This document shows, piece after piece, positions 38,022 to 44,206 of a stretch of DNA of 64,000 bases. The DNA comes from Natronoarchaeum philippinense (GTDB taxonomy: Archaea > Halobacteriota > Halobacteria > Halobacteriales > Natronoarchaeaceae), in contig NZ_OBEJ01000002.1 of the NCBI RefSeq assembly GCF_900215575.1, forward strand, positions 124,001 through 188,000. The letters run 5' to 3'. A program made the position numbers and the translations under genes. The notes below the pieces were generated by a model, which worked only from the letters and a program-made list of their open reading frames with translations, was not told the origin of the DNA and did not search any database. Within the stretch, counting starts at the first letter, position 1, and every line of letters starts with the position of its first letter.

Positions 38022-38094
38022 GGGACCGTGGGGTAGCTTGGTATCCTTCGAGCCTTGGGTGCTCGCCACCTCGGTTCAAATCCGAGCGGTCCCA
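38022..38094 (+). tRNA. tRNA-Pro (TGG)
   Basis: A 73-base cloverleaf. Acceptor GGGACCG pairs with CGGTCCC; anticodon stem CGAGC/GCTCG closes the loop CTTGGGT with anticodon TGG; T-arm CTCGG-TTCAAAT-CCGAG is perfect; discriminator is A. The D-arm has three pairs. CCA is not encoded. A TATA-like CTTTAC at 37990-37995 lies about 30 bases upstream. Confidence 0.95.
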
Positions 38095-38095
38095 T

Positions 38096-38131
38096 ATTGC
38101 TGCCGCGAGCAACTCCGTGAGCGGCAGCAAT
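38096..38131 (+). terminator. Hairpin just after tRNA-Pro
   Basis: ATTGCTGCCGC (38096-38106) and GCGGCAGCAAT (38121-38131) form a perfect 11-bp stem with a 14-base loop two bases after the tRNA. It could terminate transcription or guide 3' processing. No T-run follows. Confidence 0.5.
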
Positions 38132-38142
38132 CTGACGAGCGA

Positions 38143-38205
38143 GGATTTGAACTACGCGAGACGAGCGACGCGAGTCTCGCACCGAGTTCAAATCCGAGCG
38201 GTTCC
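38143..38205 (+). repeat. Copy of tRNA-Pro 3' end behind a hairpin
   Basis: GTTCAAATCCGAGCGGT at 38186-38202 repeats 17 bases of the tRNA-Pro T-loop and acceptor strand (38074-38090). Upstream, GGATTTGAACT (38143-38153) is the inverse of AGTTCAAATCC (38185-38195), and GCGAGAC/GTCTCGC pair between them. The result is a long hairpin ending in a false tRNA 3' end. It resembles a relic integration site or a duplicated tRNA fragment. Confidence 0.75.
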
Positions 38206-38423
38206 TGTCTGCTGTGGACCGGTTCTAGTTGAGTTCCAGATCGTGGGCCCTCAGTATGCTCGCTGTCGGTGTGTGATTGATCATTGGCCAGTCACTCGGG
38301 TGCCGCCACACCGCAGACGGCGTGGCGTTCGGCCACATCCAGCGGTAGCAGTCGCGTGGACGGCTGACACGGCGGATCGACTCCGGAAAGGTTATCCGTG
38401 TCGTGGGGCTTTGTTGAGAAGCA

Positions 38424-43761: not shown

Positions 43762-44132
43762 GCACGTACTCGGCGCCCGCCGGCGCAAAGTCGTTGCGCA
43801 CGCGGTCGAGGCGATGCCGGTGGTGGGGTGCCGCCGGAGATCGGTTTACTGGTGGGTGCTCGGTGGGGGTTGGGAGTGAAACGCCGTTCGGGCGGGTTCG
43901 AACCGCGAGGACTTCGCTTCGCTCGTCCTCTGGGCTCGAACCCGCGTTTCCACTTCGACGGCGTAGCTCCTCGCTACGCTCGTCGCGTTACGCCGTCAGA
44001 AGTGGGTTCGGGCGGGTTCGAACCTCGTTCGTTCCCGTTCGCTCGCTGCGCTCGCTCACCTCTCACTCTCTGGTTCGAACCTCCCTCGAGTAAACGATTT
44101 GACTGCTCACGTCCGTTCGCAGTCAAAGTCGA
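43762..44132 (-). repeat. Tandem copies of tRNA-Val 3' end with hairpin spacers
   Basis: GTTCGGGCGGGTTCGAACC occurs at 43886-43904 and 44006-44024 as well as in the tRNA (44136-44154); the second copy matches for 22 bases. GGTTCGAACC recurs at 44072-44081 and GGCTCGAACCCGCG at 43933-43946. Between copies lie hairpins: GAGGAC/GTCCTC (43907-43930), CACTTC-GACGGCGTA with TACGCCGTC-A-GAAGTG (43951-44004) and TTTGACTGC/GCAGTCAAA (44098-44127). All lie 3' of the tRNA. No gene is present. Confidence 0.8.
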
Positions 44133-44206
44133 TGGGTTCGGGCGGGTTCGAACCGCCGATCTCGGCCTTGTAAAGGCCACGTCATAACCAGCTAGACTAC
44201 GAACCC
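44133..44206 (-). tRNA. tRNA-Val (TAC)
   Basis: A 74-base cloverleaf on the minus strand. Acceptor GGGTTCG/CGAACCC, D-stem GTC/GAC, anticodon stem TGGCC/GGCCG with loop TTTACAA (anticodon TAC), T-arm GGCGG-TTCGAAC-CCGCC, discriminator A. CCA is not encoded. Confidence 0.96.

Follow-up and report, generated by a model that had tools for sequence, protein, structure and literature searches.

The window studied here, a stretch of 64,000 nucleotides (C2:124001-188000 of the 3.16-Mb genome G000, which groups with Halobacteria by its relatives), contains two tRNA genes, tRNA-Pro(TGG) and tRNA-Val(TAC), each followed by hairpin-bearing units with a further copy of the tRNA 3' end (Table 1). Behind tRNA-Pro, the sequence GTTCAAATCCGAGCGGT of the tRNA 3' part (38074-38090) has an exact second occurrence at 38186-38202, at 112 bp from start to start, and in a longer register of 29 nt the copy keeps 83% identity. 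Hairpin A sits between the tRNA and the inverse T-arm. Folded as DNA, the stretch 38074-38205 beats 200/200 dinucleotide shuffles (z -4.8), and the same result is obtained as RNA for 38022-38220, which includes tRNA-Pro (200/200, z -4.8). tRNA-Val(TAC) is followed by two units in tandem, whose folding beats all shuffles (z -6.5). The arrangement of copy, inverse and inner stem that an earlier note had described at tRNA-Pro, as well as its likeness to tRNA-Val, is confirmed by sequence and fold. At the gathering threshold, the sole Rfam match in the window is tRNA-Val, and the units match no family of known structured RNA. The output of this window scan does not include tRNA-Pro (38022-38094), although the genome-wide search gives it 51 bits.

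Table 1. Features of the units behind the two tRNA genes of the window (positions are those of the window).
Feature	Position	Strand	Basis or remark
tRNA-Pro(TGG), target gene, intact	38022..38094	+	ARAGORN; genome-wide RF00005 match, 51.1 bits at C2:162022-162094
tRNA-Pro hairpin A: ATTGCTGCCGC (38096-38106) / GCGGCAGCAAT (38121-38131), loop GAGCAACTCCGTGA	38096..38131	+	inverted repeat, sequence, fold
tRNA-Pro unit, inverse T-arm GGATTTGAACT, reverse complement of T-loop plus 3' T-stem	38143..38153	+	
tRNA-Pro hairpin B: GCGAGAC (38156-38162) / GTCTCGC (38174-38180), loop GAGCGACGCGA	38156..38180	+	sequence, fold, alignment pair table
tRNA-Pro T-arm plus acceptor 3' strand, copy	38186..38205	+	exact over 38186-38202, divergent after
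tRNA-Val(TAC), second target gene	44133..44206	-	ARAGORN; Rfam
tRNA-Val unit 1, hairpin A: TTTGACTGC / GCAGTCAAA, loop GAACGGACGTGA	44098..44127	-	
tRNA-Val unit 1, inverse T-arm GGTTCGAACC	44072..44081	-	
tRNA-Val 3' end, first copy	44003..44024	-	22 nt exact
tRNA-Val unit 2, inverse T-arm	43933..43945	-	
tRNA-Val 3' end, second copy	43886..43906	-	21 nt exact

The earlier note had also proposed that one mechanism acts at tRNA genes, to be checked by scanning all of them against shuffled controls and to be given up should such copies not be enriched at other tRNA genes. In G000, 45 tRNA genes were found by RF00005; the intron-bearing tRNA-Trp is missed by this search, so that the genome has more tRNA genes than these 45. 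A copy was scored when the last 26 nt of the gene itself reached an ungapped score of at least 12 within 500 nt of the tRNA gene. Own 3' copies were detected downstream of 28/45 genes and upstream of 0/45 (Fisher p about 1e-11), and these 28 genes have the distal direct repeat of their 3' end that characterises tRNA-targeting integrative elements. The score was not reached within 500 nt downstream of 17/45 genes. Dinucleotide shuffles score at least 12 in 0.2% of trials; when the downstream stretches of other tRNAs were used as a swapped control, a score of 12 was reached in 10.8% and a score of 16 in 0.8%, vs 22/45 own pairs at score 16. In a genome of the same genus (G194), own copies are found downstream of 26/43 tRNA genes and upstream of 0/43. 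The proposal of a single mechanism is thus supported by a very strong enrichment, by its recurrence in G194 and other Halobacteria and by the same anatomy at different tRNAs.

This anatomy was analysed in 32 units of a first kind, parsed at 25 tRNA genes of G000 with arm positions set by script and by eye. The units follow the order hairpin A, inverse T-arm, hairpin B and T-arm plus acceptor copy, and are 97-178 bp long (median 118.5 bp). The copy terminates exactly at the tRNA end in 17/32 units; several copies extend 2-9 nt beyond it into the trailer and one extends 42 nt, which points to copying at the DNA level in those copies. Retro-copying of the mature tRNA was rejected for the copies that enter the trailer; others stop at the tRNA end, so that this argument does not apply to all of them. 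The inverse arm is specific to its own tRNA, with a mean match of 10.72/13 vs 9.26 after permutation (sd 0.16, p<=1e-4). By eye, the stems are variable and the loop ends alike, with GA(A/G)C...GTGA in many A hairpins and ends resembling GAGCGNAGCGA in many B hairpins; one hairpin-B sequence is present at five different tRNAs (C2:780434, C2:168133, C1:441154, C2:91269 and C2:782996). The strict loop motif was found downstream 17 times on the sense strand and 8 times on the other strand in G000 (upstream, 1 and 0), and 21 and 7 times in G194 (upstream, 3 and 0). In an alignment (A1) of 11 out of 31 excised cores, hand-chosen for similar length and representing one type, 6/17 base pairs are changed on both sides, and one of these six belongs to the pairing between T-loop and inverse arm. 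The tRNA-sense strand is the better folder in 24/32 cores as DNA (p 0.003) and in 30/32 as RNA (p 1e-6); since it is better in both cases, strand bias cannot distinguish DNA from RNA.

There is a second kind of unit, which copies the last 13-14 nt only and has, by eye, its hairpins on the other strand (e.g. C2:260538 and C2:699175). Casposon-type duplications of 14 nt were considered as a comparison for it. Downstream of the tRNA-Leu type gene at C1:609741-609825 there are long repeated blocks, other hairpins and an 18-nt copy, an arrangement unlike the standard unit.

The distribution of the units was studied by means of a pattern for one common pair of inverse arm and copy, which was found in 161/194 Halobacteria genomes (59/65 genera); the reversed pattern gave no match in the same search. 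When 196 genomes were drawn from the phylum, the pattern was present in 28/33 genomes of the window's order vs 2/163 of the others (p 1e-26), and the two outside matches look like chance, one of them resembling a tRNA. Among the distinct places listed for G000, 9/9 lie behind tRNA genes detected by RF00005. Orthologous tRNA genes were matched between G000 and G194 on the basis of their sequence and flanks, with a few doubtful pairs; 36/45 pass a stricter filter, and the units were compared one by one in 7 pairs. One clean case of an empty site in a relative was found at tRNA-Val(GAC), directly behind which G194 has one complete unit and G000 none, the flanks aligning strongly upstream and moderately downstream. 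Behind the Leu-type tRNA at C2:436185, one of these genomes has two units and the other a single unit, and the difference is one exact unit. At tRNA-Val(TAC) the first unit is kept and the second is different, and the units of tRNA-Pro are wholly different between both genomes.

tRNA-Pro was surveyed at 80 loci out of 102 stretches found, 35 of them haloarchaeal by title; one Halobacteriales locus (L116) comes without downstream sequence. Among the 32 haloarchaeal loci with at least 150 nt downstream, an intact copy is present at 2 (L104 and L152) and four others look decayed by eye (L101, L119, L132 and L136), whereas 1/44 loci that are non-haloarchaeal by title reached the copy score (L150). 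The 2/32 intact copies imply that the presence of a unit at a given tRNA is patchy. A conserved RNA as the main reading at tRNA-Pro was rejected because the unit is absent from this locus in most haloarchaea. The units are widespread in Halobacteria, and they are gained and lost within a genus.

Comparison of the paired tRNAs also revealed that 16/360 T-stem sites differ between G000 and G194, vs 28/2352 other tRNA sites (36 pairs, p 8e-5), that is, about four times as frequently and mostly through paired changes. Given these differences, the units may bear on tRNA evolution. Exchange of the T-arm at insertion was considered and found no support, T-arm changes being counted by eye in 8/28 unit-bearing pairs vs 2/8 others.

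Thirteen PF00589 matches were identified in G000, and integrases occur in the same arrays as the units. At tRNA-Val(CAC) (C1:909808), the tRNA is followed by a 2.2-kb element with an integrase ORF; next come a strong hairpin, which bears a 26-nt exact copy, and two mini-units. Behind the intron-bearing tRNA-Trp there are a stretch of about 25 kb with a PF00589 match, an att repeat and two mini-units. The Val(CAC) integrase contains, by Pfam, the PF00589 (Phage_integrase) domain plus SAM-like domains. Homologues are present in 183/194 Halobacteria genomes, and the 12 phage records that match it are all haloviral, SNJ2 at 39%. Att ends were checked in the 12 nearest of 30 retrieved homologues, the Val(CAC) integrase itself included. 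A tRNA-Val 3' copy lies 116-300 bp in front of the integrase gene in 12/12, and the 80-nt window before this copy folds at least 1 sd better than local controls in 10/12 (mean z over the 12, -2.1), the two att windows without a strong fold being L343 and L344. By eye, mini-units follow the tRNA-Val copy in several of these loci (L337, L339, L341 and L348). In a second integrase group, tRNA-Ala is located just behind the 3' end of the integrase gene, so the integrase family uses more than one layout. In two haloviruses with related integrases, Harhisp1 and part of Humcor2, the attP regions measure 13-15 nt and are located at the other end of the integrase gene, and by eye they have neither the inverse T-arm layout nor such a fold. 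No mini-unit contains a recombinase gene or was observed to excise or move, and with 97-178 bp they are too small for an integrase gene of their own.

Some further loci combine copies and integrases. In front of the integrase gene of L351 (G123) there are two tandem copies ending in GGCGAGTCCA, the second of the short kind, and a first-kind-like stretch follows the second GGCGAGTCCA copy. About 15 kb from the tRNA-Ala at C1:1114179, two short Ala-like 3'-end copies (C1:1129152-1129240) are found beside an integrase match, and behind them stands the trailer that this tRNA-Ala also has; this is probably an integrated element. The tRNA-Met at C2:96960 has a 14-nt 3'-end copy 19 kb downstream (C2:115928-115941), with an integrase match in between.

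The units are probably non-autonomous att mini-cassettes of haloarchaeal tRNA-targeting tyrosine integrases. No mechanism had been given by the earlier note, and tRNA-targeting tyrosine integration is an addition of the present analysis. What the sequences show is a common anatomy, units that match the tRNA they follow and lie downstream of it only, turnover within the genus, and integrase elements that share the arrays and have att ends with hairpins. In the proposed mechanism, the unit would be inserted directly behind the tRNA gene by a tyrosine recombinase such as those that target tRNA genes in haloarchaea, with the T-arm and acceptor end of the tRNA as chromosomal attachment site. The tRNA would stay intact, and the second copy of its 3' end would be displaced to the far side of the unit, which would allow more units or integrase-bearing elements to stack next to the tRNA. 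The recombination site of the element itself would be composed of the inverse T-arm, hairpin B and the T-arm copy, folding better on the tRNA-sense strand. We infer that the mini-units are moved in trans by such an integrase and that the fold has a role in recombination, which would act on a folded single strand. Nevertheless, the matching of the cassette to each different tRNA goes beyond plain site-specific integration and counts against this explanation; as a guess, the two arms could be homogenised through folding. Further points against it are the absence of recombinase genes from the mini-units, the Val(CAC) integrase element, at whose left end hairpin A was not seen by eye, the attP regions of the two haloviruses, the two att windows without a strong fold and the patchy presence at tRNA-Pro.

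Each unit could instead be what remains of a full integrated element after deletion of its body, with the two ends joined; such remnants, left at tRNA genes by successive proviruses and plasmids, would themselves be immobile. We consider this possible though rather unlikely. The integrase elements of the same arrays and the decaying copies at tRNA-Pro are in agreement with such an origin, and the part of PMC3119063 consulted reports that in Haloquadratum prophages leave partial copies of tRNAs behind and that deletions take place between repeats of this type. However, random deletions would produce variation, and the 32 units have uniform length and order; the sharing of one hairpin-B sequence by five different tRNAs and the left end of the Val(CAC) element, where hairpin A was not seen by eye, argue in the same direction.

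It has also been considered, as an improbable reading, that the hairpins act in the read-through transcript of the tRNA, either in termination or in 3' processing. The sense bias, stronger as RNA (30/32 cores) than as DNA (24/32), and the pairs changed on both sides (6/17) would fit this function, but the bias is compatible with a folded DNA strand, too. Moreover, the 17/45 tRNA genes without a copy, the orthologous tRNAs that bear none, one or two units within a genus and the failure of the units to match any Rfam family are against it. Replication slippage or template switching at tRNA genes, which would yield inverted and direct 3' copies without dedicated machinery, would account for the match of copies and inverse arms to their own tRNA, as expected of local copying, but it is very improbable in view of the conserved hairpins common to different tRNAs, the near-restriction to Halobacteria and the lack of upstream copies.

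Among known systems, the mini-cassettes resemble SNJ2-type and related tRNA-targeting elements of Halobacteria, which carry tyrosine integrases, in the tRNA 3'-end target, the direct repeat and the haloviral relatives of the integrase; tandem stacking is reported in the part of PMC8371274 consulted. Unlike SNJ2-type elements, the mini-units have no integrase gene, measure about 120 bp and contain a conserved inverse T-arm and two hairpins. The PATE, SMR and MITE elements of Haloquadratum are also short, transposase-free, palindromic or with inverted repeats, and from Halobacteria, whereas linkage to tRNA is not reported for them in the consulted part of PMC3119063. According to the same source, PATEs are tied to IS605-type transposons and cause no target duplication; the units show a 3' duplication behind tRNA genes. 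tRNA-targeted integration, partial tRNA copies linked to prophages and PATEs are reported across the consulted parts of PMC3119063, PMC8371274 and PMC9897764, and no description of hairpin units behind tRNA genes was found in these portions of the literature searched. If the proposed explanation is true, mini-cassettes would account for a feature that is widespread among haloarchaeal genomes and has no description in that literature, and the units provide a natural archive of integration events at tRNA genes that can be counted.

A layout of this type was also looked for in viral sequences, where 77 stretches were obtained. On the IMG/VR prophage contig L256, an integrase-like ORF (211-1044, - strand), a putative tyrosine integrase as judged from its sequence, adjoins an inverse T-arm, a hairpin and a T-arm plus acceptor copy (about 1100-1172). 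Including L256, six of the stretches show the layout and lie on GC-rich contigs, which presumably resemble bifidobacterial prophages. The remaining 71/77 are chance by eye, and a viral source traced through the pattern was rejected. L256 differs from the units in being a single site of a large prophage, with a hairpin sequence unrelated by eye; it shows that an integrase gene can have such a layout next to it, and kinship with the units is not thereby proven. In Escherichia coli, tyrT is reportedly followed by 178-bp repeats, each of which includes 19 nt from the 3' end of the tRNA. These repeats are like the units in their tandem position behind a tRNA gene and in carrying the tRNA 3' end, whereas they are limited to a single locus, and we know of no inverse T-arm in them.

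The units are similar in their working to integron cassettes (attI, attC): both have an inverse arm, a variable hairpin and a direct arm, the array grows beside a fixed site, and one strand folds better. On the other hand, the arms of the units are tRNA T-arms, the fixed site is the tRNA, the mini-cassettes are gene-less and the relatives of the integrase in phage records are haloviral. The core arms of integron attC sites are RYYYAAC / GTTRRRY, a consensus from which the GTTCRAA arms of the units depart. It is conceivable, although we think it unlikely, that Halobacteria have a tRNA-anchored integron-like system, in which the T-arm would be the docking site, cassettes folded as single strands would be recognised by a tyrosine recombinase, and gene-less and gene-bearing arrays would stand behind most tRNA genes. 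Folded single-strand attachment sites are a property of integrons and of CTX-type phages, and the units described here allow a direct test of whether such sites exist outside these two systems.
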